From the NCBI GenBank assembly GCA_030613505.1, contig JAUWLW010000041.1:1-24037 (forward strand): a DNA stretch of 24,037 nt, read 5' to 3'. Position numbers and translations under genes: made by a program. Origin of the DNA: Candidatus Zixiibacteriota bacterium (GTDB taxonomy: Bacteria > RBG-13-66-14 > B26-G2 > WVWN01). The notes beneath the pieces are model-generated. The model made no database searches. It was not told the DNA's origin and saw only the letters and a program-made list of their open reading frames with translations. Shown here one piece after another: positions 1,050 to 13,966 of the stretch (position 1 is the stretch's first letter; every line of letters begins with the position of its first letter).

Positions 1050-2501
1050 ATGCCCGACACTTTCCACAACTACATAAACGGCGCGTGGATGCCCGCGGCA
1101 GGCGGCGAGCTCCACGAGAACGCCAACCCCGCCGACATCCGCGAGCTGGTGAGCGTCCACTCGCGCGGCGGCCGCGGCGACGCCTTTGCCGCCGTCGAAG
1201 CCGCGAAGAAAGCGTTTCCGTCCTGGCGCGACGCGCCAGCGCCCGCTCGGGGCGAGTACCTGGCCCGGGCGGCGGCCTTGCTCCGCGAGCGCGCCGACAA
1301 CATAGGCCGCGACTTCACCCGCGAGGAGGGCAAGACCCTCCGCGAGGCGCGGGGCGAGACGCTGCGCGCGGCGCAGATATTCGACTTCTTCGCCGGCGAG
1401 GGGCGGCGGGTGGGTGGCCGGACCTTCGCCGCCGACGGCCGCGACACCTTCCTCTACACCCTTCGCGAGCCGCTGGGCGTCGTCGCCCTCGTCACGCCGT
1501 GGAACTTCCCCGTCGCCATCCCGGCGTGGAAGCTCGCGCCGGCGCTGGTCGCGGGCAATACGGTCGTCCTCAAACCGGCGACGAACACGCCGCTCACCGC
1601 GGTGCGCCTGTTCGAGTGCCTGGCGGACGCCGGCTTGCCGGTGGGCGTGGCCAACCTGGTCTACGGCCCGGGCGCCGAGCTGGGCGACGTCTTCTGCGAG
1701 AGCGAGGACGTTAAAGCGATATCGTTCACCGGCTCGAGCGAGGTGGGGAAAGGATTGGCGGCCAAGGCCCACCAACGCCTCGTCAAGGTCCAGCTCGAGC
1801 TGGGCGGCAAGAACCCTCTCATCCTGGCCGACGACGGCGACCTCGAGCGCGCGGTGGCGTACGCCGCCGACGGCGCCTTCGGCTCCACCGGCCAGAAGTG
1901 CACCGCGACCAGCCGGGCCATCGTCCCGCGCGGCCGGCTGGAGGAGTTCGCCGCCAAGCTCGGCGCCGCGGCCAAGCGGATAGTCGTCGGCAACGGCCTG
2001 CGCGACGACGTCGATATGGGCCCGCTGGTGGACGCGGCTTCGCTGGAGCGCGTCCTCAACTATATCGAGGTCGGGAAGAAAGAAGGCGCGACGCCGGCCT
2101 GCGGGGGCCGGCGCCTGGACGACGGCGAGCTGGCGCACGGCTTCTTCGTCGAGCCGACCGTCTTCGTGGGCGTCACGGCCGAGATGACTATTTGGCGGGA
2201 GGAGATCTTCGGGCCGGTGCTCGCGGTCGCGACGTACGACGACTTCGACGAGGCGATAGCGCTCGCGAACGATACCGCCTACGGCCTGTCGGCTACGCTG
2301 GTAACCAAGAGCCTTAGGCGGGCGATGAGGTATATAAAACAGATCGAGGCCGGCGTCGTGCACGTCAACTCGCCCACCGTCGGCGCGGCGTGCCACGTCC
2401 CCTTCGGCGGCTACAAGGAGTCGTCCTCCGGCTCACGGGAGCAAGGGCAAGAGGCGCTGGAGTTCTTCACGCAGCTCAAGACGGTGTACTTGGATATTTA
2501 G
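1050..2501 (+). CDS. Aldehyde dehydrogenase, alpha-ketoglutaric semialdehyde dehydrogenase type
   Basis: A 483-residue NAD(P)+-dependent aldehyde dehydrogenase of full length. Catalytic elements are in place: TPWNFP with N152, the general base E250 in QLELGGKNP, and the nucleophile C284 in GQKCTATSR. The EEIFGPVL motif and the C-terminal PFGGYKESSSGSREQG are also present. The GQKCTATSR and SSSGSREQG wording matches the YcbD-like group that oxidises 2,5-dioxopentanoate (alpha-ketoglutaric semialdehyde) to alpha-ketoglutarate, the last step of pentose (Weimberg) and glucarate degradation. Substrate specificity is inferred from remembered family similarity. The gene starts 11 nt after the HEPN gene with no visible Shine-Dalgarno sequence, so it may be co-transcribed with the HEPN/MNT pair by read-through. 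A KdaD-like dehydratase that would produce its substrate lies at 12555-13412. Confidence 0.88.
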   Translation: MPDTFHNYINGAWMPAAGGELHENANPADIRELVSVHSRGGRGDAFAAVEAAKKAFPSWRDAPAPARGEYLARAAALLRERADNIGRDFTREEGKTLREARGETLRAAQIFDFFAGEGRRVGGRTFAADGRDTFLYTLREPLGVVALVTPWNFPVAIPAWKLAPALVAGNTVVLKPATNTPLTAVRLFECLADAGLPVGVANLVYGPGAELGDVFCESEDVKAISFTGSSEVGKGLAAKAHQRLVKVQLELGGKNPLILADDGDLERAVAYAADGAFGSTGQKCTATSRAIVPRGRLEEFAAKLGAAAKRIVVGNGLRDDVDMGPLVDAASLERVLNYIEVGKKEGATPACGGRRLDDGELAHGFFVEPTVFVGVTAEMTIWREEIFGPVLAVATYDDFDEAIALANDTAYGLSATLVTKSLRRAMRYIKQIEAGVVHVNSPTVGAACHVPFGGYKESSSGSREQGQEALEFFTQLKTVYLDI

Positions 2502-2521
2502 ACTTCGGCGGGACGCGATAA

Positions 2522-2547
2522 AAAAGCCGCCCGTGTGGGCGGCTTTT
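2522..2547. terminator. Bidirectional terminator between convergent genes
   Basis: The stem AAAAGCCGCCC (2522-2532) with loop GTGT pairs with GGGCGGCTTTT (2537-2547). A-tracts and T-tracts on both sides let it work on either strand. It lies between the dehydrogenase stop (2501) and the stop of the minus-strand beta-helix gene (2568). Confidence 0.9.
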
Positions 2548-2567
2548 AATCGCGGCGTTTTGCGAGG

Positions 2568-3413
2568 TTATTTAAAGAACGTCTTGAGGAAACCCAGCGA
2601 GTAGTTGGGGACCTTGCCGCCCTCGCGCCACGGCCCCGTTAGGAAGGGCGTGTAATCTACTTCGCCTTTTGTGCGGTTGTCGTGGTAGTCGTAAATCCTC
2701 ATATTAATTACGTCCGGCCGCGGCGTTCCCCACCAACAGTTCGTGGCGTCGACGTTGTTGCTCGAGCCGTTGTAAAAATTCCACATCCCGTCGCGGTTGC
2801 TTAAGTCGCAATAATTCATATTCACGTAGCTTCGAAGGCCTAAGGCCTTTACGCCGGCGAACCCGTTTTTCTCGACGGTCAAATGATAGAATTTGGCGCG
2901 GGAATCGCTGGCGAGGACGCCGTTGTTCAGGCAGTAGCGGATGATCGTGCCGTCGAAGGAGGAGCTGGAGGAGCCCATCGAAGTCGTGTTTTGAAGGCGT
3001 AGGCCGTTGGTGGCGAATTCGATTATCGCGTTCTCAAGGATAATCTGATTCGACCTCTCCACGACGATGGCGCCCCAGTCGCCCATCTTCTTTACGCCGT
3101 TGGCGGAGGTGAATTTGACCGGCAAGCCGGTACTACCCTCGGCGACGAGTGCGCCGCTGCGCACTACCAGCTCGGCACCGTCCTCGTAGCCGCCGGTCCC
3201 CTTTACGTCGTAAAACCGAACCTCGACGCCCGCCTCTATCGTCAGCGTCGCGCCTTCCTTGATAGCTACGTCGCCGTGTATGTAAACCGGCCCGCCGCTG
3301 CGCTTCCACGTCGTGTCGGTCACGATATCTCCGGCGTGGACGTCGACCGCGGCAAACGCGGCGCCGGCCGATAGCGCCAGCGCCAGGGGGATTATGATAA
3401 GCTTCCTAAACAT
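2568..3413 (-). CDS. Secreted right-handed beta-helix protein with C-terminal SLG-x-[IL]-K tail
   Basis: A 281-residue exported protein. It begins with a clear signal peptide (MFRKL, hydrophobic core, likely cut after AFA near residue 22). Short repeating strands follow: VYIHGDVAIKEGATLTIEAGVEVRF, then IILENAIIEF, IIRYCLNNGV, LTVEKNGFAGV and MNYCDLSNRDG. These are typical of right-handed parallel beta-helix (pectate-lyase-like) surface proteins. NCWWGT near residue 226 is a common capping motif in these families. The last ten residues, SLGFLKTFFK, resemble the tail of the secreted protein at 7602-8420 (SLGRIKALYK). A ribosome site GGAGGAG precedes the ATG by about 10 nt. The gene stands alone between its own promoter and a shared terminator. 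No catalytic residues can be assigned, so it may be a cell-surface or adhesive protein rather than an enzyme. Confidence 0.85.
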   Translation of the reverse strand: MFRKLIIIPLALALSAGAAFAAVDVHAGDIVTDTTWKRSGGPVYIHGDVAIKEGATLTIEAGVEVRFYDVKGTGGYEDGAELVVRSGALVAEGSTGLPVKFTSANGVKKMGDWGAIVVERSNQIILENAIIEFATNGLRLQNTTSMGSSSSSFDGTIIRYCLNNGVLASDSRAKFYHLTVEKNGFAGVKALGLRSYVNMNYCDLSNRDGMWNFYNGSSNNVDATNCWWGTPRPDVINMRIYDYHDNRTKGEVDYTPFLTGPWREGGKVPNYSLGFLKTFFK

Positions 3414-3449
3414 GGTGCGCTCTCCTCCTCTCCTCTCAGAGCAAGTTGA

Positions 3450-3478
3450 AGTCTATCACAGAACGTACCCCCTTGCAA
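3450..3478 (-). promoter_or_regulatory. Probable promoter of the beta-helix gene
   Basis: On the minus strand TTGCAA (3478-3473) is followed after 17 nt by TAGACT (3455-3450). Initiation would fall near 3443, leaving a leader of about 30 nt that carries the GGAGGAG ribosome site. The match to consensus is partial. Confidence 0.45.
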
Positions 3479-3491
3479 CCATAATATCCTT

Positions 3492-3507
3492 AAAAAACGG
3501 CCGGCCG
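3492..3507 (-). terminator. Weak terminator-like site after the glycosyltransferase gene
   Basis: Read on the minus strand, the palindrome CGGCCGGCCG (3507-3498) is followed by six Ts (3497-3492). It is 77 nt beyond the stop of the minus-strand glycosyltransferase gene. The stem is short, so termination here is uncertain; I see no better site in the 170-nt gap. Confidence 0.3.
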
Positions 3508-3583
3508 AAATAAACGTGCCGCGGCCGCGAGAGCCGCGTAAGGGAGCGCTTTTCTTAGGTTTCGCGCGCCCTATTCGGGAATA

Positions 3584-5269
3584 CTAACGCCCCGGGCGCG
3601 GCGAAGGGATTTCCAAAAACCAGACGTGCCACGGCGGGATGGTGGGGCCCGTTAGGCTCGAGCCACCGGCCGGCCCCACGTCCACGACGTCGAAATCGCG
3701 GGCCAGCGTCGTCGTCAGGCCCAAGATGTAGTCGTCGCGCTCGCCGGCGGCCGGGGGCAGCTCGCTCACGAAGTACGCCCGCCGGACGCCCCGCGTCGCC
3801 AGCTTCTCCGCGACATCCGCCAGCTGCTCCTCCTCCGTAACCAGCACGAAGGGTTGGCGGAAGTACAAAGGCGCGACGTACGCCGGGAAATACCATTTAT
3901 TGGTCAAAACCGGCGCCGCGGCGCGGGAGCTAACGTCGGCGACGAGGTCGCGGTGCGCGGCCTTGGTCGCGGCCAGGCGCGCCAGGCCAAAGAGCTGCGT
4001 CGCCGCGGACAGCGCCGCGAGCGCGATCACGAAGGCTGCGCGGAGGGTACGGCCGCGCCCGCCGTTCCCCTCGGCTACCCGGGCCAAAGCGACGGCCGCC
4101 GCCGGTAAGACGTACAGCAGGAACCGGGGCCCCCAGGCGTAGCCGCTGGTATCGGGTATGACGACGAACAGCGTAACGGCGAAGGCCGCCGCGGCGACGT
4201 AGAAAGATTTCTCGAGCGCGTCGGCGCCGCGGAAGGAGCGTCGCACTTCGGCTCGAGCCAGGAAGACGAGGCCGAAGGCCGCCGGAAAAGCCGCCGCCAG
4301 CGGCGTCGCGTGGCCGTGGAAAAATTGCCAATACGCGAGAGTCAGCGGCACAGCGCCGGCGGCGGCGACGTAGGCGCCGGGCCGCCATTTTAACCCAATT
4401 AGCGCGAACGACAGTATGCCGGCCGCGGCCGCGCCCAAGTACCAGGGGAAGACGGGCACCAGCGAGTGGCCTACGCCGTATAGGAACGTAGCCGGGCCGC
4501 GGGGCGCGCCGTAGCCGAGGTTGGCGCCCAGGCGCATGAACGCCGGTTGGCCCCACGCCGCGTGCATAAATAACTCGAGGCCGACGACGGTTATAGCGAA
4601 GGCCGCGGCGGCCCAGGCCGCCGTCCGGACCCGGTCCCCTTTACTAAATATGAATAATGCGGCCGCGCTCCACGCCGCGAGCCAGTAGAACTCGGGCCGG
4701 AGGGCCGCGCCGAAGGCCCAAACTACGCCGGTCAAAACCAACCGCGCCGGCGACCGCCTAAGGAGCAGCGCGAAGCCGCCCAACCACAGCGCGACCGCCG
4801 CCGTGTGCTCCCAGTAGCATAGGCTGTAGAAGAATATGGGGCTGGCGAAGGCGACGACGGCGCCGGCGAACCAGGGCCGGCGCGCGCCGAACGCCCGGGC
4901 GAGCTTTACCGTTAAAAGCACCGTCGCGGCGCCGGCCGCCAGCGGTAAGAAGTAAAGGCCGCGGAAGCCGAGGAGGAGCCACCCGGGCGCCGACGCCAGC
5001 GCGAACAACAGCGGGTGCGGCGCGTAGAGCTCGCCGCCGCGCAGCTCGAAGAAGCGCTCGACGACGGCGTAGCGGCGCTCGAGGCCCAGCTCGTCGCCGG
5101 GCCAAACTATGCGCGCGTCGCGAAAGCCGCTCTCGGCCAGCGCGCGGAGCTGGATGAACTTCACGCCCTCGTCCGAGGAGAAGAACGCGTCCGCCGGCAG
5201 CCAAACGAAGACCAGCGCCGCCGCGGCGACGACGAAAAGGAGTATAACGAGTAAGGAGGGTCTAGACAT
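3584..5269 (-). CDS. Polytopic GT-C-like glycosyltransferase (LA_3751/LA_3752-like)
   Basis: A 561-residue integral membrane protein with roughly ten to twelve hydrophobic segments. It starts with MSRPSLLVILLFVVAAAALVF and a first periplasmic loop, and ends in a soluble C-terminal domain of about 130 residues. The loop after helix 1 contains SSDEGVKFIQLRALAESG and a WPGDELGLERRYAV segment. This acidic first loop is typical of GT-C lipid-linked sugar transferases (PMT/ArnT-like) and resembles the LA_3751/LA_3752 family. Such enzymes move sugars from polyprenyl donors to lipids or proteins outside the membrane; the acceptor here is unknown. I start it at ATG 5269. The frame can be extended to TTG 5314, but that TTG is the -35 box TTGACG of its own promoter. 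No Shine-Dalgarno is visible and the leader would be only about 10 nt. Confidence 0.78.
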   Translation of the reverse strand: MSRPSLLVILLFVVAAAALVFVWLPADAFFSSDEGVKFIQLRALAESGFRDARIVWPGDELGLERRYAVVERFFELRGGELYAPHPLLFALASAPGWLLLGFRGLYFLPLAAGAATVLLTVKLARAFGARRPWFAGAVVAFASPIFFYSLCYWEHTAAVALWLGGFALLLRRSPARLVLTGVVWAFGAALRPEFYWLAAWSAAALFIFSKGDRVRTAAWAAAAFAITVVGLELFMHAAWGQPAFMRLGANLGYGAPRGPATFLYGVGHSLVPVFPWYLGAAAAGILSFALIGLKWRPGAYVAAAGAVPLTLAYWQFFHGHATPLAAAFPAAFGLVFLARAEVRRSFRGADALEKSFYVAAAAFAVTLFVVIPDTSGYAWGPRFLLYVLPAAAVALARVAEGNGGRGRTLRAAFVIALAALSAATQLFGLARLAATKAAHRDLVADVSSRAAAPVLTNKWYFPAYVAPLYFRQPFVLVTEEEQLADVAEKLATRGVRRAYFVSELPPAAGERDDYILGLTTTLARDFDVVDVGPAGGSSLTGPTIPPWHVWFLEIPSPRPGR

Positions 5270-5285
5270 TAGGGATGCGCGGCCG

Positions 5286-5314
5286 ATGGTAGCACGCCGA
5301 CCGGGAGCCGTCAA
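5286..5314 (-). promoter_or_regulatory. Promoter of the glycosyltransferase gene
   Basis: On the minus strand TTGACG (5314-5309), 17 nt, then TACCAT (5291-5286). Expected initiation near 5279 leaves a leader of about 10 nt before ATG 5269. It is divergent from the promoter at 5338-5366, forming a compact two-way regulatory region. Confidence 0.55.
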
Positions 5315-5337
5315 TTGCGCCGACGCGTAAACCGAGC

Positions 5338-5366
5338 TTGCCCCCGCGGCGCCGTTATGTTACAAA
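5338..5366 (+). promoter_or_regulatory. Probable promoter of the S9 peptidase gene
   Basis: TTGCCC (5338-5343), a 17-nt spacer, then TACAAA (5361-5366). The start of transcription would be near 5373, just before the ribosome site GAGGTG (5374-5379) and ATG 5385, so the leader is very short. The match to consensus is moderate. Confidence 0.45.
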
Positions 5367-5384
5367 AAATGCCGAGGTGCGAAT

Positions 5385-7328
5385 ATGCCACGGAAATTCA
5401 TCGCGATAGTCTTCGCCGTAGTCGTCTGCTGCGCCGCGGCCCGCGGCTACACCATCCAGCAATATCTAAATATCCACGGCAACTACCAGGGTTACTGGCT
5501 GCCCGACGACGAGGTAATTTTCCGAAATAAAACGACCGGCGTAACGCAGGCCTGGCGCACGAACGCGGCGACGGGCCGGCCGGAGCAGATAACCTTCTTC
5601 GACGAAGGCGTGGCCTACGCCGTCGCGCACCCGGTCACCGGCAAGGTCCTGGCCGGAGCCGACGTCGGCGGCGACGAGCGCGACCAGCTCTACCTAATGA
5701 ACGACGACGGCTCGAGCGTCGAGGCGCTGACCGACAACCCGGAAGTCATATACCGCTACGGCGACTGGAGCCGCGACGGCCGCTACCTGGCCGTCGGCGC
5801 CAACGAGCGCGACGAGCGCTACTTCGACGTATACGTCTACGACGTGGAAACCGGCGAACGCCGTCTGGTAATGCAGCACGACGGCTACAACGAGGCGCTC
5901 GCCTTCTCGCCCGACGGCTACGAGCTTATTTTCTACCGCTACAACGGCTCGCAGGACGGCGACCTATACCTCATCGATTTGGAGACGGGCGAGACGCGGC
6001 ACCTCACGCCGCACGAGGGCGAGCTCGAAATAGGCGCCGTGGCCTGGGACGCCGACGGCTACGGCTTCTACTTCACCTCCGACGAAGGCCGCGACTTCCT
6101 CTCGCTCGCCTATTACGACCTGGCCCTCGGAGAATATGAGTGGCTCGAGACGCCGCCCTGGGACGTCCGCCAGCTCGAGACGTCGTGGAGCGGCCGCTAC
6201 CTGTTGTGGACGACGAACGAGGACGGCTACACGGTCCCCCACCTCCGCGACCTTAAAAGGAAGAAGGACGTGGCGCCGCCGGAGCTCCCCGCCGAGGGTG
6301 TGATGTGGGGCATACGCTTCTCGCCGGACGAGGAGGAGGTCGTGTTTACGTTCTCGTCGCCGACGACGCCGACAGACGTTTACGCGTGGGACATAAGGGG
6401 CGAGACCGTGGAGCGGGTTACGGAGGCTGCGCTGGCCGGCGTCGAGGCCGGGTCGTTCGTCGCGCCCGAGCTCGTCTTCTACGCCTCCTTCGACGGGACG
6501 ACGGTCCCGGCCTTCCTCTACGTCCCACCGGGCGTCGCGGACGACCGCTCCACCCCGGTCGTCGTCCACGCCCACGGAGGGCCCCAAATACAGCAGCGGC
6601 CTTATTTCAGCGCCATCTACCAATATTTCCTGGACGCCGGCTACGCCGTCTTCGTCCCCAACTTCCGCGGCTCGATGGGGTACGGCAAGACGTACGCCGA
6701 CGCCGATAACGTCGAGAAGCGGATGGACGCGGTCCTCGACGTCTACGAGGGGTGGTGGTACCTGGCCCGGCTGCCGTGGTGCGACCGCTTCAAGATCGCC
6801 ATCTACGGCTCGAGCTACGGCGGTTTTATGGTCCTGTCCCAGCTCACGCAGCGGCCTTACCACTGGGCCGCCGGGATAGACGTCGTCGGCATCGCCAACT
6901 TAGTCACCTTCTTGCAGAACACCGGGCCGTGGCGGGTCTCGCTGCGCGAGGACGAGTACGGCTCGCTCACGGAGGACCGCGAGTTCCTGGAGGCCGTCTC
7001 GCCCGTAAACCACATCCAGGACATCCGCTCGCCGCTGATGGTGATACACGGTGCCAACGACCCGCGCGTGCCGGTGGGCGAGGCCGAGCAGATAGTCGAG
7101 GCGGCGCGCGTGGTCCTGGGCGACGATAAGGTCCTCTACCTGCGCTACGACGACGAGGGACACGGCCTGGCCAAACTCGAGAACCGCCTCGACGCCTACC
7201 CCAAGATGGTCCAATTTTTGGAGGAGGCGTTCGCCGCGCGCGAGCCGTTCAAGGCGAGGCTGGAGAAGGAGGTAGAGGACGCGGAGCGCGCGCTCAAGGA
7301 GATGGAGGGGGAAGCCAAAGGGGAATAA
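5385..7328 (+). CDS. Secreted S9-family (prolyl oligopeptidase / acylaminoacyl-peptidase-like) serine peptidase
   Basis: A 647-residue exported peptidase. The signal peptide spans about residues 1-21 (MPRKFIAIVFAVVVCCAAARG). Residues 25-370 form a WD40/TolB-like beta-propeller, with repeated SPDGYELIFYR, WSRDGRYLAVGAN and FSPDEEEVVFTFS motifs. The C-terminal 270 residues form the alpha/beta-hydrolase domain. The catalytic triad is visible: S477 in YGSSYGGFM, D559 in HGANDPRVP and H593 in DDEGHGL. HAHGGPQ near residue 398 fits the oxyanion region. Family members cleave short peptides that enter through the propeller. With the signal peptide it should act in the periplasm or outside the cell. 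The final 30 residues are charged and helical (EKEVEDAERALKEME), an unusual extra tail. GAGGTG lies 5 nt before the ATG. Confidence 0.93.
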   Translation: MPRKFIAIVFAVVVCCAAARGYTIQQYLNIHGNYQGYWLPDDEVIFRNKTTGVTQAWRTNAATGRPEQITFFDEGVAYAVAHPVTGKVLAGADVGGDERDQLYLMNDDGSSVEALTDNPEVIYRYGDWSRDGRYLAVGANERDERYFDVYVYDVETGERRLVMQHDGYNEALAFSPDGYELIFYRYNGSQDGDLYLIDLETGETRHLTPHEGELEIGAVAWDADGYGFYFTSDEGRDFLSLAYYDLALGEYEWLETPPWDVRQLETSWSGRYLLWTTNEDGYTVPHLRDLKRKKDVAPPELPAEGVMWGIRFSPDEEEVVFTFSSPTTPTDVYAWDIRGETVERVTEAALAGVEAGSFVAPELVFYASFDGTTVPAFLYVPPGVADDRSTPVVVHAHGGPQIQQRPYFSAIYQYFLDAGYAVFVPNFRGSMGYGKTYADADNVEKRMDAVLDVYEGWWYLARLPWCDRFKIAIYGSSYGGFMVLSQLTQRPYHWAAGIDVVGIANLVTFLQNTGPWRVSLREDEYGSLTEDREFLEAVSPVNHIQDIRSPLMVIHGANDPRVPVGEAEQIVEAARVVLGDDKVLYLRYDDEGHGLAKLENRLDAYPKMVQFLEEAFAAREPFKARLEKEVEDAERALKEMEGEAKGE

Positions 7329-7383
7329 AAACTTACCGGTTAAATGAAAACGCCGCCCCGCGGCTCGGGCAAGATAGACCAGT

Positions 7384-7411
7384 AGCGGGGGGGTTTTAAA
7401 CCCCCCCCGCT
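7384..7411. terminator. G7/C8 hairpin, possible terminator of the S9 peptidase gene
   Basis: AGC plus seven Gs (7384-7393), a TTTTAAA centre, then eight Cs and GCT (7401-7411) form a very stable, nearly symmetric stem about 55 nt after the peptidase stop. There is no U-run after it, so it may act as an mRNA 3'-end stabiliser or a weak terminator instead. Confidence 0.5.
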
Positions 7412-7428
7412 TCCGATATTAAGGGGGT

Positions 7429-7479
7429 GGCGTCGGATGTTACCATCCGACGCCCTAGCCTTCAGGTGGTAACACCTGA
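7429..7479. repeat. Intergenic palindromic repeat, copy A (two hairpins)
   Basis: Two adjacent perfect hairpins. The first is GGCGTCGGATG, loop TTAC, CATCCGACGCC (7429-7454). The second is TCAGGTG, loop GTAA, CACCTGA (7462-7479). The first recurs with one change at 11133-11158. The second shares the CACCTGA/AGGTG theme seen at 11067-11086 and 12538-12549. This looks like a dispersed, REP-like intergenic element. Confidence 0.75.
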
Positions 7480-7511
7480 CGGCACGGCAGCTCGATAGCT
7501 ATTAAAATAGG

Positions 7512-7540
7512 TTGACAAGGGGGCGGCGCAGGTATAATAT
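7512..7540 (+). promoter_or_regulatory. Promoter of the SLGRIKALYK secreted protein gene
   Basis: TTGACA (7512-7517) is perfect. Downstream is TATAATATA (7533-7541). The perfect TATAAT gives a 15-nt spacer, while TAATAT (7535-7540) gives the ideal 17. The promoter at 15418-15446 has the same TTGACA-to-TAATAT spacing. A leader of about 55 nt leads to AGGGAG (7591-7596) and ATG 7602. Confidence 0.8.
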
Positions 7541-7601
7541 AGGTCTCGTCTGATAGGGAAATATTCGGGGAAGTTTCGGGAGATAAGGTAAGGGAGTTAT
7601 T

Positions 7602-8420
7602 ATGAATAGGATAATTACGCGACGGGCGAGCGTGGCCTTGACGGCCGCGGTCGCGTTAATTGCTACCCAGTACGCGGTCGCGGACTACCCCAGCATTGTC
7701 AGCTCGTTCCGGATGAGCGGTACGACGGAGCCCCGCGCTCGCGGGATATACGCCGGCGGCGGCTTGGGCGTGGGCGGGATATTCTACGAGGGCCCCGGCC
7801 GCCACTCGCTCCGAGTCTTCGCCTCGGGCGGCAGCCTGGTGGCGACGTATCCCATGCCGGGGGGCGTCATGTTGGGCGACGCCGACCGCGCGCCGGAGGG
7901 GTACGCCGGGTGCTTCGCCGTCGTCGACGAGGGCTCCCACGACCTGAAAGCCTACACCATGACGGGGAGCCTTTACGGCGTCATCCGAACTCTCTCGAGC
8001 GACGTCGTCGCGTACGCCTGCGGCGGCCACGTAGTGGACTACCTGTATTTGGGGACGACGGACGGCAAGGTTTTTCGTTATACGCCGGCGTGGAGTTTCT
8101 TGAACTCGTTCTGGACCGGCGTGCCGACGGCGGACCTCGCCGCGGGCAAAGGTTACGACGGCCGCTGGGGGAACGGGGGCGTGCTGGGCCCGGCGCGGGC
8201 GCCCGCCGACCTCGCGGCGTACCAGGGCGATGCGGGAAGGTTTTACGCCTCGTTCGCGCTCTCGGGCAGCGCGAGCCGGGGCGCGGTATACTGTGCCCCC
8301 TCCATGATGTGGTGCCTCCGGGACCTGGGGACGGAGATCTGGGCGTACGAGATCTACACCGGTCCGCTAATGCCCGTCGAGCCCGCGTCGCTGGGGCGTA
8401 TCAAGGCGTTGTATAAATAA
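7602..8420 (+). CDS. Secreted protein of unknown function with propeller-like repeats and SLGRIKALYK tail
   Basis: A 272-residue exported protein that I cannot assign to a named family. The signal peptide covers about residues 1-27 (MNRIITRR, then a hydrophobic stretch ending in YAVA). The mature part has short repeated strand patterns such as LRVFASGGSLVATYPMP, LKAYTMTGSLYGVIRTL and LYLGTTDGKVFRYTPAW. These resemble beta-propeller blades that track a moving text-like value. Four cysteines (including C231 and C238 in YCAPSMMWC) may form disulfides outside the cytoplasm. The protein ends in PASLGRIKALYK, similar to the C-terminus of the beta-helix protein at 2568-3413. It is monocistronic, with a strong promoter and a shared terminator 25 nt after the stop. 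Start chosen by the AGGGAG site 5 nt upstream. Confidence 0.8.
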   Translation: MNRIITRRASVALTAAVALIATQYAVADYPSIVSSFRMSGTTEPRARGIYAGGGLGVGGIFYEGPGRHSLRVFASGGSLVATYPMPGGVMLGDADRAPEGYAGCFAVVDEGSHDLKAYTMTGSLYGVIRTLSSDVVAYACGGHVVDYLYLGTTDGKVFRYTPAWSFLNSFWTGVPTADLAAGKGYDGRWGNGGVLGPARAPADLAAYQGDAGRFYASFALSGSASRGAVYCAPSMMWCLRDLGTEIWAYEIYTGPLMPVEPASLGRIKALYK

Positions 8421-8444
8421 GGCAACCGAAAACGTTTAAAGAAA

Positions 8445-8466
8445 AAGCTGCCCCGCCGGGCGGCTT
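8445..8466. terminator. Bidirectional terminator between convergent genes
   Basis: AAGCTGCCC (8445-8453), loop CGCC, GGGCGGCTT (8458-8466), with one G-T pair. T-tracts follow on the minus strand (TTTTT) and, more weakly, on the plus strand. It overlaps the stop codon of the minus-strand MurJ gene and ends the plus-strand secreted-protein gene. Confidence 0.8.
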
Positions 8467-10018
8467 ATTTCTTCCTCAACTTTGCCCACACGCTCCGCGC
8501 TAAATCCACCACCTCCCCTTCCCGCATCGCGAACATCAATATAAAATACAACGCCGCCCCCGCCGCGGCCGACGCCACCGCCACCACGAACGGCTCGAGG
8601 CGCGCCGGGCCCCCTATCCCCCAATCCAATCGCGACAGCCACCACACCAGCGCCGCCATCGGCGCCGCCGCCAGGAGCGCCCGGGCGGCAGTCGCCGCCA
8701 CCCGCCACTCCAACGTCAAACGCTCGGCCCGGGCGAGGAGCGCGAAGACCGCGACGAACCACAACAGCGCCACCGCCCCCCGCGCCAGCGCTATCCCCCA
8801 ATAACTCCACAGCGCGGCGAAGCCCCGGTCGAAGGCGTACGTCGCGACGACGGCCCCCACCGCGATAAGCGAGTACCCCAGGTACCGCTTGTACGAGTAC
8901 GCGACGTAGCGGATGAGGTTCGTGGCGACGAGGAAGAGGAGACCTACGGCGTAGGCCGCGACCGCCGGCCTCGCCAGCGCCAGCGACGCCTCGTCGAACT
9001 TGCCGCCGACGAAGAGGAAGCGGATGAGCGGCTCCGCCAGGATTACGAGGCCCACCGACGCCGGGACGTAGAAGATGGCGAGCTGGCGCAGGACGCGGTT
9101 GAAGCGCTCGTTTATTTCGCCGCGGGCGGCTCGAGCCGCGGCCCGCGAGAAATAGGTGAACGTCACCCGCGCCAGCGGCACCGAGAAGAACGCGATCGTG
9201 AAGCCGCTGAGGACGAAGCCGTACTTGAGCGCGGCGATGGCCCCCGGTAGCTCGAGCGTCGCGGCCACCTGGCGGTCGATGAACGTCTGGATCTGCTCCG
9301 CGGCGGCGCCGAAGGCCAGCGGCGCGGCCCAGCCGGCGAAGAGCGCCACCTCCGGCGCGCGCACGTCGAGCCTGGGCCGCCAGTGGCGCAAGCCCTTCGT
9401 GATGACGCGCGCCGTGAGGATGAGAACTTGTATGGCGGCGGCGCACACCGCGCCCAGCGCGATGGCGAACGGCCCCAGCGTCGGCGCGAACGCCAGCACC
9501 GATGCCACGACGAAGACGGGCGGGACCAGGTTCGTCAGCGCCGGGAAGACGAACGACTCCAGCGCGTTGTGCAGCGACAGGAACGTCCGCAGTACCAGCG
9601 AGAGCGCCACCGCCGGCGCGAAGACGCGCAGCAGCGACGCGGCGTAGTCGAGCTCCGCGGCGGAGGCGTCGGCCGCGAGCCACCCGGCGATGGGGCGGGC
9701 CAGCAGGAATATGGCCGCCGCCGCGGCGACGTAGAACAACACCGAGACGTTGAAGACGTTCCATATCCGCCGCCAGGCGCCGGCCTCGTCGTGCTCGGCC
9801 TGCAGCTTGTGGAACAGCGGCAAGAGCAGCGCCGCGAAGAGGTTCTGCGTGAAGACGGTGAGGAGCTCGGGGAGGACGGCTATCAGAAGGTAGAGGTCGT
9901 AGACGCGCTCGGTCCCGAAGGCGCGGGCGACGACGATGGCCTGCGCCGCCGCGCCCAGCATCGCGCCCACGTTGATAAGGCTCATGCCGGCGACGGCGCG
10001 CTTCACCGATATCGCCAT
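8465..10018 (-). CDS. MurJ/MVF-family lipid flippase
   Basis: A 517-residue membrane protein with about 13-14 hydrophobic helices, the normal size for the MurJ (MviN) branch of the MOP flippase superfamily. Visible hallmarks are the N-terminal amphipathic start with MSLINVGAMLGAAAQAIVVARAFG, the NLFAALLLPLF segment of helix 2, and the FVGGKFDEASLALA motif near residues 350-363, which matches the conserved RGKF region. MurJ moves lipid II across the inner membrane for peptidoglycan synthesis; related proteins move other undecaprenyl-linked sugars. The gene starts 8 nt after the stop of a methyltransferase gene, so the two form an operon. Because that partner is of the surface-polysaccharide type, a flippase for another lipid-linked glycan is a real alternative to lipid II. 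The stop overlaps the terminator. Confidence 0.85.
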   Translation of the reverse strand: MAISVKRAVAGMSLINVGAMLGAAAQAIVVARAFGTERVYDLYLLIAVLPELLTVFTQNLFAALLLPLFHKLQAEHDEAGAWRRIWNVFNVSVLFYVAAAAAIFLLARPIAGWLAADASAAELDYAASLLRVFAPAVALSLVLRTFLSLHNALESFVFPALTNLVPPVFVVASVLAFAPTLGPFAIALGAVCAAAIQVLILTARVITKGLRHWRPRLDVRAPEVALFAGWAAPLAFGAAAEQIQTFIDRQVAATLELPGAIAALKYGFVLSGFTIAFFSVPLARVTFTYFSRAAARAARGEINERFNRVLRQLAIFYVPASVGLVILAEPLIRFLFVGGKFDEASLALARPAVAAYAVGLLFLVATNLIRYVAYSYKRYLGYSLIAVGAVVATYAFDRGFAALWSYWGIALARGAVALLWFVAVFALLARAERLTLEWRVAATAARALLAAAPMAALVWWLSRLDWGIGGPARLEPFVVAVASAAAGAALYFILMFAMREGEVVDLARSVWAKLRKK

Positions 10019-10026
10019 CGGCCGGC

Positions 10027-10923
10027 TTAGTCCTTTCGGGCGATGATGCCTAAGATGTCGCGGGGGTTAATGCGAAGGGGGACGTTCGACAGGCCCAGCG
10101 CGCCGGTGAACTTCTCGGCGAAGTTGAAGTAGTCGCCGTAGGCGCGCATCTTGTGGGCCAGGTAGCCCAGCGTCCAGGTCTTGACCGGCTGGTGCACGTC
10201 CACCGGGACGAAGCCCGTCTCGGCCAGCATCCGCGTCGCCGTCGCGCGGTTGAAATAATAAGTGTGGAAGCGCATGACGTACCACCAGCGGCGCTTGCGC
10301 CAGCGCGCGAAGACGCTCGAGACGTCCGGGAACTCGACGTAGAGGTAGCCCCCCGGCTTGAGAAGCCCGTACGCGTAGCGCAAGTCTCGGCTGGGGTCGG
10401 CGACGTGCTCCAGGACGTGGAACATCGTCACGACGTCGAAGTGCTCGCGGGGAAGGTCGTTCTCGGCCAGGAAGACGGGGCGGATGTCGAGGCCCAGCTC
10501 GTCGCGGCCGTATCGCGCCGCGGCCCGCGTCGGCTCGACGCCGCAGCGCTCCCACCGGTCGGGCTCGAGTAGCGACAGGAAGAAGCCGTGGCCGCAGCCC
10601 ACGTCCAGGATGCGGCCTCCCCGCACGTAGCGCTCCAGCCGCTCGATGTTCCACCGGTAGGAGGCGTCCTTGGCCGGTTTCTGCTCGAGGTACGCGTCGT
10701 CCTCGACGTCGCGGTAGATCTCGGCCATAAGCTCGGTGGACTCGCGGGGGTTGGCGTATATGAGGCCGCAGGAGCGGCACTTGACGATGCGGCAGTTGAG
10801 GTTGTTGGGGTCCGACTGGCGATAGAGGTCGACGTCGCCGATGGTGTACTCGTCCACCGTCGCCGGGTAGACGACGTCGTAGTCGTCGGCGCCGCAGAGG
10901 TTGCAGTTGACGTACTCGAGCAT
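10027..10923 (-). CDS. Class I SAM-dependent methyltransferase with N-terminal zinc knuckle
   Basis: A 298-residue methyltransferase. The N-terminus carries two CxxC pairs, C7/C10 (CNLC) and C49/C52 (CRSC), which probably bind zinc. The SAM-binding motif I, ILDVGCGHGFF, lies at about residues 105-115. The later motif DVVTMFHVLEHVADP and LLKPGGYLYVEFP are typical of the Methyltransf_23 group. Such proteins often sit in surface-polysaccharide or modified-sugar clusters. Its substrate is unknown. It is the first gene of a two-gene minus-strand unit with the MurJ-type flippase 8 nt downstream. No Shine-Dalgarno precedes ATG 10923. Instead a 20-bp perfect palindrome ends 7 nt before the start, which could control translation or bind a regulator. 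Confidence 0.85.
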   Translation of the reverse strand: MLEYVNCNLCGADDYDVVYPATVDEYTIGDVDLYRQSDPNNLNCRIVKCRSCGLIYANPRESTELMAEIYRDVEDDAYLEQKPAKDASYRWNIERLERYVRGGRILDVGCGHGFFLSLLEPDRWERCGVEPTRAAARYGRDELGLDIRPVFLAENDLPREHFDVVTMFHVLEHVADPSRDLRYAYGLLKPGGYLYVEFPDVSSVFARWRKRRWWYVMRFHTYYFNRATATRMLAETGFVPVDVHQPVKTWTLGYLAHKMRAYGDYFNFAEKFTGALGLSNVPLRINPRDILGIIARKD

Positions 10924-10930
10924 GGCGGAA

Positions 10931-10950
10931 ACGCGGCCCGCGGGCCGCGT
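10931..10950. promoter_or_regulatory. 20-bp perfect palindrome before the methyltransferase gene
   Basis: The sequence ACGCGGCCCGCGGGCCGCGT reads the same on both strands. It lies between the predicted -10 box (10954-10959) and ATG 10923, so it would be in the transcript leader. It could be a dimeric repressor operator or an RNA hairpin (8-bp stem, CGCG loop) that covers the ribosome landing area. Confidence 0.65.
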
Positions 10951-10953
10951 CGT

Positions 10954-10982
10954 AATCTAACATATATTACCCGGTTTGTTAA
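10954..10982 (-). promoter_or_regulatory. Probable promoter of the methyltransferase-flippase operon
   Basis: On the minus strand TTAACA (10982-10977), 17 nt, TAGATT (10959-10954). It lies in an AT-rich patch in an otherwise GC-rich area. Transcription would start about 25 nt before the ATG and include most of the palindrome. Confidence 0.5.
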
Positions 10983-11034
10983 GAAGTTTTGTTTTGTGGG
11001 GCCGGTCTTGTGGCGCCGACTTTAGATTTCCGTG

Positions 11035-11096
11035 GGGCCGACATTCCTGTCGGTCCTCTTACTTTAAGGTGGCCACACCTGAAGGTGCGGCCCTAC
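11035..11096. repeat. Intergenic palindromic repeat, copy B
   Basis: GGGCCGACA-TTCC-TGTCGGTCC forms a hairpin. After a variable spacer comes an ACACCTGAAGGTGCGGCCCTACG block. Both blocks recur in the same order and orientation at 12503-12557. An extra AGGTG-GCCA-CACCT dyad (11067-11080) is present only in this copy. It lies between the methyltransferase promoter and the low-GC TPR gene. Confidence 0.8.
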
Positions 11097-11103
11097 GAAA
11101 ACT

Positions 11104-11125
11104 CCCCGGCGGCGTCGGGGTTTTT
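11104..11125 (+). terminator. Orphan plus-strand terminator-like hairpin
   Basis: CCCCG (11104-11108) pairs with CGGGG (11116-11120), followed by TTTTT. It points in the plus direction, yet no plus-strand gene lies immediately upstream, because both flanking genes are on the minus strand. It may be a remnant or part of the repeat block. Confidence 0.4.
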
Positions 11126-11132
11126 GCTCGGT

Positions 11133-11158
11133 GGCGCCGGATGTTACCATCCGACGCC
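11133..11158. repeat. Intergenic palindromic hairpin, second copy of the 7429-7454 element
   Basis: GGCGCCGGATG, loop TTAC, CATCCGACGCC. It differs from the hairpin at 7429-7454 by a single base in the left arm, which creates one mismatch in the stem. It ends 8 nt before the stop codon of the minus-strand TPR gene. Confidence 0.75.
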
Positions 11159-11166
11159 CGGGGCCC

Positions 11167-12429
11167 TTACCTACCCTTTTCCTCGAGCAACGTACTCGCT
11201 ACTTTAATATTCCTTTTTACAGACTCGATTTCCCGCGCCGCGCCTATTCTTTCGAAAATCGCGAGGGCCTCACCGTAAAACTCTAACGCCGACGCAGGTT
11301 CTTCTCCAATAACGTATAAGTTACCAATACTATTCAATTGATTACCTTCACCAAGAGGATTCCCGATAAGTCGGAAGATCCCCAATGCCTCGTAGGTATT
11401 CGCTAGCGCTCCTTTGAAATCGCCCATGTGCCTGAGGACGATACCTATATTGCCTAGGCTTGCCGCCTCCCCGAACCGGCTACCAATCTGCCTATGTAAT
11501 TCGAGGGCTTCCCGATGGCTATCCAATGCTCCTTCTATGTCGGCCTTTGTTTGAAGTGCGTTCCCGATGTTACCTAACTGATTAGCTTCTCCTAGCTTAT
11601 TGCCTAATCGGCGATCTATTGCGAGCGCCTCCCGGTGCGTTTTTAAAGCTTTTCCTACGTCTCCTTTTAATTTAAGGACCGTTCCGATATTACCAAGGAT
11701 ATTGGCCTCCCCGGTTTGATCGCCGGTACGCAGGTAAACTTCGAGCGCGAGTTCGTAGTGCGATAGAGCCGCGTCTAAGTCACCCTCTGTGGCAAGTACG
11801 GTGGCTTTGTTACCTTTATTCGCGACAAAAGCCACGTCGTCCCCTATATCTTTTGCTATATCGGCTCCTTCATCGTGATGACGTATTGCTGCGGCGTAAT
11901 CCCCCATATCCCTTTCCACCAAACCAAGGCCGTTAAACGCCCAAGCGCGCGCCCGGTCGTCGCAGGCATAATCGGCTAAAGTCAATGCCTTTTTATACTC
12001 TTCTTCAGAAGCCGCGAATTCGCTTAAATAACCCAATACATGACCTAACGCCTGGTGTATCGCGCTGAGTTGGGAATGGTCTTTGGTCTTGGTTAAAGCG
12101 TCTTCGAAATGCCCCTTGGCATCCTTAAACCGGAATTCCTTCATCGCCCGTAGGCCGTCGGCGTACGGGTCGCGAACCTCGTCTGGGGCTTGCGGTAACC
12201 CATCTGCGTATAAATCGAATTTAGAAGTAAGGTCTTTTATTTCTTTACCAAGCTCATCTAACGCTGCTTTTTGTTCTGCGCGGGATTCTGCTTTTTCTTT
12301 TTCTTCTCTTTTCCTCTGCTTGCGGTCGATATATAACTTAACGGCGGTAAATAGGAATCCGACTATTCCTAAAATCCCGGCTATTTTACCTATTAAAACC
12401 CAGTCCGGTACGTGTCCGTAGATTTCCAT
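11167..12429 (-). CDS. Membrane-anchored TPR protein
   Basis: A 420-residue protein. One transmembrane helix lies at about residues 11-31 (VLIGKIAGILGIVGFLFTAV). A basic and acidic coiled-coil linker follows (RKQRKREEKEKAESRAEQK), then tetratricopeptide repeats from about residue 90 to the end. Several repeats follow a 40-residue period with the wording LGNIG, GDxxxAL and HREAL. These are scaffold modules for protein binding; no enzyme domain is visible. The long soluble part should be cytoplasmic, following the positive-inside rule (RKQRKR after the helix). The coding sequence is noticeably richer in A and T than neighbours, with codons such as TTA and ATA, which hints at recent acquisition or relaxed selection. 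Directly repeated palindromic elements flank it. The -10 box TAAAAT lies 8 nt before the ATG, with no Shine-Dalgarno. Confidence 0.85.
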   Translation of the reverse strand: MEIYGHVPDWVLIGKIAGILGIVGFLFTAVKLYIDRKQRKREEKEKAESRAEQKAALDELGKEIKDLTSKFDLYADGLPQAPDEVRDPYADGLRAMKEFRFKDAKGHFEDALTKTKDHSQLSAIHQALGHVLGYLSEFAASEEEYKKALTLADYACDDRARAWAFNGLGLVERDMGDYAAAIRHHDEGADIAKDIGDDVAFVANKGNKATVLATEGDLDAALSHYELALEVYLRTGDQTGEANILGNIGTVLKLKGDVGKALKTHREALAIDRRLGNKLGEANQLGNIGNALQTKADIEGALDSHREALELHRQIGSRFGEAASLGNIGIVLRHMGDFKGALANTYEALGIFRLIGNPLGEGNQLNSIGNLYVIGEEPASALEFYGEALAIFERIGAAREIESVKRNIKVASTLLEEKGR

Positions 12430-12437
12430 ATCGCGCT

Positions 12438-12466
12438 ATTTTAAATTAGCCCGGACCTAAAAACAA
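12438..12466 (-). promoter_or_regulatory. Promoter of the TPR gene, leaderless geometry
   Basis: On the minus strand TTGTTT (12466-12461), 17 nt, TAAAAT (12443-12438), then 8 nt to ATG 12429. Initiation about 7 nt after the -10 box would fall at or next to the start codon. Confidence 0.55.
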
Positions 12467-12502
12467 CTATTATTTATCTTCATTAACAATTACGTAAAAT
12501 TA

Positions 12503-12557
12503 GGGGCCGACATTCCTGTCGGCCCTGATCGCGGCTACACCTGAAGGTGCGGCCCTA
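12503..12557. repeat. Intergenic palindromic repeat, copy C
   Basis: GGGCCGACA (12504-12512), loop TTCC, TGTCGGCCC (12517-12525), then CACCTGAAGGTG (12538-12549) and GCGGCCCTACG. The order and orientation match copy B at 11035-11096. Its last bases supply the TAG stop codon of the minus-strand dehydratase gene, so the element abuts or has invaded the 3' end of that gene. Confidence 0.8.
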
Positions 12558-13412
12558 CGGTAACCGCCTCGCCGTATTCACCAACCGGCCGAACGGCGCG
12601 GCCTCGATGGCTACCTCGTCGCCCTCCTGCAGCGTGAACCCGGCCGGCGTCATCACGCCCGTGCCGGTCAGCGCGACGCTCCCCGGCGGCAGCGGGTTGT
12701 ACCGCGTCAGGTACTCGTGCAGATATTCGATGGGGTGCCTGAGCTGCGACGTGTTGGCGCTCCCGGCGAAGACGACCTCGCCGCCCCTTTTTATAGACAT
12801 CGTTATCTCCACGTTCGCCGGCTCGAGCTGGTCCGCCGTTACGAGGCAGGGCCCCAGCGCGCAGCACGCGGTGTAGATCTTCGACTGCGGCAGGTAGAGG
12901 GGGTTCTCGCGCTCGAGGTCCCAGGCCGAGACGTCGTTGCCCAGCGTGTACGCCACGACGGCGTTCCCGACGCCGACGACGTACGCCAGCTCGGGCTCCG
13001 CGGCGGTAAGCTCCGAGTCGCCGCGGATGCCGACGTCCTCGCCCGGGCCGACGCATCGCGCCGCGGTGGCCTTGAAGAACGTCTCCGGCCTGGGCCCCGC
13101 GTGCGCCCGGGCGTAGATGTCGCCGCCCGTTCGACCGGCGTCCTCCTCGCGGTCCGCCGCGCTCGTCTTATAGGTGACGCCGAAGCCCCACACCTCCGGC
13201 GGCTCGAGCGGGATAAGCGGCCCTTCCACGCCGGCCTCCGGAACAGGCCGCTTCGTCGTGAGGTGGACGACGTCCACCAGCGTCTCCGCGGAGACGCCGG
13301 CCCGGGTGAGGAGCTCGAGCGTCGTCGCGACGCCGGCCACGACGAACCGCTCGCCCTCGTCCTCCGCCACGACGGCCCGCTCACCGTCAATCAAATATTG
13401 ATAGAGCTTCAC
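12555..13412 (-). CDS. FAH-family dehydratase, 2-keto-3-deoxy-D-arabinonate dehydratase (KdaD)-like
   Basis: A 285-residue protein of the fumarylacetoacetate-hydrolase fold. The core has WGFGVTYKTSAADREE near residues 75-90, RPETFFKATAARCVGPGED near 108-126, and LGNDVSAWDLERENPLYLPQSKIY near 157-180. Likely metal ligands are E139 and E141 (in AEPELAYVVG) and D160. The VTYK, FFKA, RCVGPGE and DLExENPLYLPQSKIY pattern is that of KdaD, which dehydrates 2-keto-3-deoxy-arabinonate to alpha-ketoglutaric semialdehyde; I recall this from the archaeal enzyme. The product would be the substrate of the dehydrogenase at 1050-2501. Start at GTG 13412: a short AAGG lies close by and a -10-like TATCCT sits 8 nt upstream, so it may be leaderless. 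It is divergent from the Mth938 gene. Confidence 0.8.
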   Translation of the reverse strand: MKLYQYLIDGERAVVAEDEGERFVVAGVATTLELLTRAGVSAETLVDVVHLTTKRPVPEAGVEGPLIPLEPPEVWGFGVTYKTSAADREEDAGRTGGDIYARAHAGPRPETFFKATAARCVGPGEDVGIRGDSELTAAEPELAYVVGVGNAVVAYTLGNDVSAWDLERENPLYLPQSKIYTACCALGPCLVTADQLEPANVEITMSIKRGGEVVFAGSANTSQLRHPIEYLHEYLTRYNPLPPGSVALTGTGVMTPAGFTLQEGDEVAIEAAPFGRLVNTARRLP

Positions 13413-13420
13413 CGACCTTA

Positions 13421-13449
13421 AGGATAAAAAACCTTCCGCCTCCGCGCAA
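13421..13449 (-). promoter_or_regulatory. Possible promoter of the KdaD-like gene, leaderless geometry
   Basis: On the minus strand TTGCGC (13449-13444), 17 nt, TATCCT (13426-13421), then 8 nt to GTG 13412. The -35 match is weak. The spacing repeats that of other genes in the window. Confidence 0.4.
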
Positions 13450-13476
13450 CAAAAAACGCGACGCCGAAAGATAGTT

Positions 13477-13485
13477 TGCTATAAT
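13477..13485 (+). promoter_or_regulatory. Extended -10 promoter of the Mth938-domain gene, leaderless geometry
   Basis: TGC followed by a perfect TATAAT (13480-13485) is an extended -10 element. No -35 box is evident 17 nt upstream. Only 6 nt separate it from GTG 13492, the same arrangement as at 260-272, so transcription should start at the start codon. Confidence 0.7.
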
Positions 13486-13491
13486 ATAGAC

Positions 13492-13842
13492 GTGGCGCCG
13501 AAGATAGATTCGTACGAGTTCGGCCGCGTAACGGTGGACGGCCGCGAGTACCGCGCGGATATAATAATCCTACCGGAGCGCGTCGTCGCGGACTGGTGGC
13601 GGGTGGAAGGCCACGGCCTGGCGCCCGGGGACCTGAAGGAGGTCGTCGAAGCCAAGGCCAAGGTCCTCGTCGTCGGCACGGGCTCCTACGGCGTGATGTC
13701 CATCCCGGGAGATACCGTCACGTACCTCGAGGGCCGGGGTATAAAGGTCGAGGCGCACGATACCGCGAAGGCGGTCCGCCGCTACAACGAGCTCGCCTCG
13801 AGCGGGGAGCGCGTCGCCGCCGGTTTGCATTTGACGTGTTAG
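13492..13842 (+). CDS. Mth938-domain (DUF498) protein
   Basis: A 116-residue protein covering the whole Mth938/DUF498 domain. Visible conserved wording includes IDSYEFGRVTVDGREY at the start, ERVVADWWRVEGH in the middle, VLVVGTGSYGVM near residues 58-69, and RYNELASSGERVAAGLHLTC at the end. The family fold is known from structures (MTH938; the mitochondrial relative is complex-I assembly factor NDUFAF3), but the bacterial function is not established. The GTG start is fixed by the TATAAT box 6 nt upstream, and no Shine-Dalgarno is present. The gene stands alone on the plus strand, divergent from the KdaD-like gene with a 79-nt gap between them. Confidence 0.88.
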   Translation: MAPKIDSYEFGRVTVDGREYRADIIILPERVVADWWRVEGHGLAPGDLKEVVEAKAKVLVVGTGSYGVMSIPGDTVTYLEGRGIKVEAHDTAKAVRRYNELASSGERVAAGLHLTC

Positions 13843-13966
13843 GTTTCATCGAGTTTTGTTGATGGAGCGAAGCAAATGTTTCAGGGCGAGGGTAAAGCCG
13901 CGTTTGGGATAACGAGGTATAGGATAAAGCAGCGTTACCGAGGCTCGAGCCGCACGCGGATGACCT

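Follow-up and report, generated by a model that had tools for sequence, protein, structure and literature searches.

The octamer GCTCGAGC is a highly iterated palindrome (HIP)-like sequence outside cyanobacteria, with an enrichment that is frame-independent, symmetric and genus-wide and acts at the level of double-stranded DNA. It was noticed in a 24,037-nt stretch (JAUWLW010000041.1; the whole stretch is referred to as the window), which is contig 42 of a bacterial metagenome-assembled genome (MAG) of 2.86 Mb in 100 contigs, designated G000, from a relative of Candidatus Coatesbacteria. The first-pass annotation located the signal at positions 1731–13950; copies are enriched there, but the over-representation belongs to the whole genome, with 916 copies (320 per Mb), about 9–11 times the base-composition expectation. 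This genome-wide occurrence rules out a local feature of the window, although with 13 copies versus 7.7 predicted per 24 kb by the genome-average rate the window is locally rich (Poisson P ~0.05 for 13 or more).

Octamer statistics for G000 were obtained from 1.47 Mb including the window (51% of the genome), with genes from a simple gene caller. Against a third-order Markov model, GCTCGAGC is 4.61-fold over-represented and ranks first among 41,099 octamers, followed by GCCCGGGC at 4.10-fold. A count close to a third- or fifth-order expectation had been named as evidence against the signal; the third-order result stands far from it, while the excess shrinks to 1.74-fold at order 5 and 1.01-fold at order 6. 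Orders 5 and 6 do not provide a fair refutation, because such models absorb the motif itself, even for bona fide HIP1 (GCGATCGC): in 150-kb portions taken from two cyanobacterial plasmids, where HIP1 exceeds base composition 98- to 123-fold, its ratios were 1.29 and 1.79 at order 5, similar to that of GCTCGAGC, and fell to 1.00 and 1.03 with order 6. On base composition alone, which is Elhai's measure, CGACGTCG stands above GCTCGAGC (661 copies, same base make-up, mainly in one phase), and GCTCGAGC therefore ranks first only after codon or context correction. With this correction it is the most over-represented octamer and, as is characteristic of HIPs, a GC-rich palindrome occurring far above chance at several hundred copies per Mb.

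Like a HIP, GCTCGAGC is enriched in any frame and outside genes, and the first-pass claim of over-representation at the DNA level, beyond codon and dicodon preference, is supported by three nulls. When synonymous codons were shuffled within genes, 43, 66 and 289 copies were seen in the three phases versus 2.4, 14 and 78 expected (17.6-, 4.7- and 3.7-fold), and GCTCGAGC ranked first among octamers by both total and worst-phase ratio. The strictest null keeps every dicodon count and so absorbs part of the motif itself; expectations rose to 8.0, 21.4 and 124, yet all three phases stayed enriched (5.4-, 3.1- and 2.3-fold), with a total of 2.59-fold versus a 99th percentile of 1.76 for sampled frequent octamers. 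Dicodon preference in one frame, which had been named as a possible refutation, therefore does not explain the enrichment. Intergenic DNA contains 61 copies versus 6.5 expected at order 3 (~9-fold, rank 1), including 16 versus 1.5 in gaps shorter than 300 nt. A preference for codons and codon pairs such as CTC-GAG and TCG-AGC, with no effect at the DNA level, would be consistent with the common use of CTC, GAG, TCG and AGC and with the share of the Leu-Glu phase (289 of the 398 coding copies). However, the phase with the 17.6-fold excess, 5.4-fold with dicodons kept, relies on two little-used codons (GCT for 5.9% of Ala; CGA for 6% of Arg), and the intergenic excess also contradicts this explanation. 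It is rejected as the whole cause by the synonymous and dicodon nulls and is very improbable.

Substitutions inside the CTCGAG core reduce the excess in G000 to 0.7–1.6-fold, while outer-base variants keep 2.1–2.2-fold; as in HIPs, single-base deviations are thus concentrated at positions 1 and 8. In genes, CTCGAG reaches 1.08-fold with no matching flank, 2.15-fold with one and 4.2-fold with both. Between genes the corresponding order-1 values are 2.2, 2.7 and 13.9, and the joint effect exceeds the product of the single flanks. The second palindrome, GCCCGGGC, an 8-base SrfI-type site, is enriched in all phases of G000 (2.6-, 3.2- and 2.9-fold) and accompanies GCTCGAGC in each of the four genomes of the genus. 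Its core, CCCGGG, gives 0.78 with no flank, 1.03 with one and 2.82 with both under the dicodon null. The non-palindromic hybrids GCTCGGGC and GCCCGAGC reach only 1.4–1.5-fold in G000 (GCTCGGGC 1.39 under the dicodon null), and a degenerate CYCGRG (AvaI-like) site as the enriched unit is not supported; in the related genome G003, GCTCGGGC is 2.6-fold enriched, on 16 copies. Because the flank pattern is alike in GCTCGAGC and GCCCGGGC and weak in the hybrids, the unit is a symmetric palindrome of the form G-core-C, in which the variable pair is either T:A or C:G.

The sequence contexts of GCTCGAGC are nearly all unique, its spacing is random (coefficient of variation 1.02) and it is dispersed much as other octamers are, with no periodicity and no clustering beyond other octamers along the G000 contigs. 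Flanking sequences are similar in only 10 of ~100,000 site pairs, among them four with identical contexts, and spread of the octamer within a repeat family or mobile element is therefore rejected. The role of a segregation mark, suggested earlier, found no support, given this ordinary clustering, the lack of periodicity and a palindrome without polarity.

The main rival explanation is selection of GCTCGAGC as the target of a dimeric DNA-binding protein, acting in chromosome organisation, recombination or DNA uptake at many dispersed positions. Its palindromic symmetry, the hardly enriched hybrids, flank effects resembling binding preference around a strict core and the existence of an enriched genome that seems to lack a matching methyltransferase agree with such a role. 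The absence of periodicity and clustering speaks against it, as does an interspecies conservation no better than that of other frequent octamers, and a genic density at least equal to the intergenic one (398 copies in 1.21 Mb versus 61 in 0.26 Mb) argues against promoters. Chi and KOPS sequences are normally not palindromic. The same is true of DNA uptake sequences (PMC1939737), while GCTCGAGC is a perfect palindrome with no strong asymmetric flank extension, unlike the non-palindromic, orientation-dependent sequences of these three types. Selection for protein binding seems somewhat unlikely.

The genomes compared comprise G001, G002 (CP070633) and G003 (WVWN01), which belong to the same genus as G000, and G004 (CP070755) from another genus of the same order; CP070633 and CP070755 are both Candidatus Coatesbacteria. 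All the genomes are incomplete or draft MAGs, those of the genus being 78–97% complete (G003, 90%). Against the third-order model no octamer exceeds GCTCGAGC in any of the four genus members, and under the synonymous null it ranks first in G001 too. The observed/expected ratio (O/E) on base composition is 11.1 in G000, 14.4 in G001, 13.9 in G003 and 3.6 in G002, and 1.1 in the non-enriched G004. In another family of the phylum it is 1.5–4.6, on very small composition samples, and a weak excess elsewhere is possible. In orthologous codon alignments of G000 with its three congeners, 22 of 50 GCTCGAGC sites are kept versus 12.9 expected codon-wise, with a comparable excess for GCCCGGGC, GCCGCGGC and CGACGTCG; the conservation of GCTCGAGC between species does not demonstrate selection at single sites.

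The turnover of sites between species, together with the mild excess (~2-fold, synonymous null) of several other GC-rich palindromes, could stem from mutation that depends on sequence context, or from biased gene conversion, with G favoured beside CYCGRG and no dedicated enzyme involved. However, the most affected octamer is one specific palindrome, and the values for CCTCGAGG (0.81-fold) and GCGCGCGC (0.93-fold) under the same null make a general palindrome or GC effect insufficient. The enrichment is, moreover, absent in G004, and this explanation is rather improbable.

A separate observation concerns the taxonomy of the relatives: contig WVWN01000053.1 (G003:C55) is labelled Candidatus Zixiibacteriota, yet it is placed in the genus of the Coatesbacteria chromosome CP070633, and the label looks wrong.

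The leading explanation of the enrichment, with about an even chance (probability roughly 0.5), is a DNA-level drive on the core, most likely by repair or modification. A process of this kind would recognise the core symmetrically, as a dimer would, and retain mutations completing G-core-C, so that sites would be ratcheted up genome-wide rather than having a function at each single site. It would resemble the process that Elhai proposed for HIP1, in which the first core C, methylated beside the flanking G, steers mismatch repair (PMC4390886), although here the methylating enzyme may not exist. MutS1 is present in all four genus members.

Several observations weigh against such a drive. Other frequent octamers are conserved alike, and drive and ordinary composition effects are therefore not separable in the codon alignments. 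Near-misses of the core are often depleted for HIP1 but not for GCTCGAGC. Among five methyltransferase families searched in 14 incomplete genomes, with enzyme specificities not assigned, none tracks GCTCGAGC. The strongly enriched G003 has no match to PF00145, PF01555, PF07669 or PF02384 and shows no C5, N6_N4, N6_Mtase or Eco57I enzyme; its only match is a Dam-like enzyme, which was not found in G001, one of the two strongest enrichments. Finally, Vsr was searched for and is absent from the genus, and Vsr-type repair is rejected as the cause.

The methylation mark proposed in the first-pass annotation found no support in the searched families, where no candidate methyltransferase follows the octamer. 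Nor does any enzyme have an assigned specificity that would make CTCGAG an XhoI-type restriction-modification target. Searches of the genus recovered no C5 methyltransferase, G000 and G001 have many N6_N4, Eco57I and N6_Mtase enzymes, and the search for a sixth family, PF05063 (MT-A70), was uninformative, giving no match even in control genomes. The Dam-like enzyme of G000, a D12 family match of 257 aa below the NCBIfam dam cut-off, is common to G003 (81%), G002 (75%) and G004 (49%); its presence in the non-enriched G004 and the failure to find it in G001 disfavour it as the cause.

An orphan methyltransferase targeting GCTCGAGC could have been missed by the searches, through lost contigs or membership in an unsearched family, which would make the octamer a full HIP in Elhai's sense. 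The incomplete or draft state of all the genomes leaves room for such an enzyme, cyanobacterial HIP genomes nearly always hold a candidate methyltransferase for part of the palindrome (PMC4390886), and a CTCGAG-specific orphan methyltransferase was reported in Nocardia (Blow et al., 2016; PMC4752239). With five families in 14 genomes and none following the motif, a missed enzyme is unlikely; its probability overlaps with that of the repair or modification drive, because it is one form of the latter. It is possible, though doubtful, that GCTCGAGC and GCCCGGGC constitute an independent HIP system outside cyanobacteria, driven without a site-specific methyltransferase. If true, a methyltransferase-independent HIP would run counter to the model in which HIPs originate through methylation.

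Two further features of G000 were noted. At L007 8418–10157 (G000:C7), the Dam-like D12 adenine methyltransferase gene lies back to back with an opposite-strand radical-SAM/spore-photolyase-like gene. In the same genome, GATC (0.4–0.6-fold), CGATCG (0.25–0.6-fold) and CTAG (0.13–0.4-fold) are depleted over the 1.47 Mb, the opposite of GCTCGAGC.

In the window itself, all 13 copies of GCTCGAGC reported by the first-pass annotation were recovered at their exact coordinates (Table 1). Its estimates of about one copy expected and of some forty CTCGAG sites versus eight agree with dinucleotide-preserving shuffles of the window, which gave a mean of 1.31 and a maximum of 5 octamers, and with a CTCGAG count of 44 versus 8.5 in shuffles. 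The copies occupy all frames, with five nGC TCG AGC (Ser-Ser), five CTC GAG (Leu-Glu) and two GCT CGA GCC (Ala-Arg-Ala), and the single intergenic copy, at 13943, was confirmed. CGA is indeed little used for Arg (36 of 534 Arg codons). The other copies of GCCCGGGC in the window start at 1666, 4893, 8679, 8727, 13041, 13105, 15393, 17857, 20716 and 21409.

Table 1. Copies of GCTCGAGC and the first copy of GCCCGGGC in the window.
Sequence	Position	Location and codon context
GCTCGAGC	1732–1739	Aldehyde dehydrogenase gene, GGC TCG AGC (Gly-Ser-Ser)
GCTCGAGC	1793–1800	Aldehyde dehydrogenase gene, CAG CTC GAG CTG
GCTCGAGC	2760–2767	Reverse-strand gene 2571–3413 (beta-helix-like), GGC TCG AGC
GCTCGAGC	3656–3663	Reverse-strand gene 3587–5314, GGC TCG AGC
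GCTCGAGC	4251–4258	Reverse-strand gene 3587–5314, GCT CGA GCC (Ala-Arg-Ala)
GCTCGAGC	5710–5717	S9 peptidase gene, GGC TCG AGC
GCTCGAGC	6808–6815	S9 peptidase gene, GGC TCG AGC
GCTCGAGC	9129–9136	Reverse-strand MurJ-like gene, GCT CGA GCC
GCTCGAGC	9250–9257	Reverse-strand MurJ-like gene, ACG CTC GAG CTA
GCTCGAGC	12821–12828	Reverse-strand FAA-hydrolase gene, CAG CTC GAG CCG
GCTCGAGC	13202–13209	Reverse-strand FAA-hydrolase gene, CCG CTC GAG CCG
GCTCGAGC	13313–13320	Reverse-strand FAA-hydrolase gene, ACG CTC GAG CTC
GCTCGAGC	13943–13950	Intergenic
GCCCGGGC	1263–1270	First of 11 window copies of the second iterated palindrome

Apart from the palindromes, a near-identical ~90-base stretch (AAAAATCCCCCGGCAGTCAAGGAGGGAGGGGGATGTCATTATTTCTTATTTCAGACC...) occurs twice in L101, at ~405–500 and 1308–1400, about 0.9 kb apart; both stretches are located downstream of a 16S rRNA gene, on its strand.

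A search of the literature for GCTCGAGC as an over-represented word found no relevant paper among those listed. One of the closest known systems is the CTCGAG orphan methyltransferase system of Nocardia, which shares the six-base core; its motifs cluster near dnaA, whereas GCTCGAGC is dispersed genome-wide, octameric and without an assigned enzyme. Also close are the alternative HIPs of cyanobacteria, GGCGCC, rCCGGy, GCsGC and GGGATCCC (Elhai, 2015; PMC4390886). In these, too, a different GC-rich palindrome takes the HIP role at a few hundred or more copies per Mb, and only some members of a degenerate family are enriched, as are GCTCGAGC and GCCCGGGC within GCYCGRGC. They are, however, described in cyanobacteria and associated with a methyltransferase that can modify the sequence, while for GCTCGAGC none was found among the searched families.

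HIP1 proper, that is GCGATCGC in a cyanobacterium, is not what G000 contains: the host is a Coatesbacteria relative, from a phylum unrelated to cyanobacteria, the core CGATCG is depleted (0.25–0.6-fold) and, unlike for HIP1, no matching methyltransferase was detected in the families searched. The proposed similarity in kind is nevertheless supported by the Markov, synonymous, dicodon, intergenic and flank analyses. Both are GC-rich palindromic octamers enriched in all phases, with a six-base core and an outer G/C. HIP1 is near all-or-none, with both flanks present at 93% of CGATCG sites versus 28% of CTCGAG sites for GCTCGAGC, which is about tenfold weaker (O/E ~11 versus 98–123 in the cyanobacterial control). 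With an O/E of 11 versus 55–228 in most HIP1 genomes (PMC4390886), it is also weaker than most HIPs. HIP1 has been a long-standing puzzle in cyanobacteria, where the link to methyltransferases is correlative. GCTCGAGC provides a weaker, graded and independent case in an unrelated lineage, in which an enriched genome apparently without a matching enzyme and the genus-level boundary of the gain make it possible to test methylation and selection as separate models.

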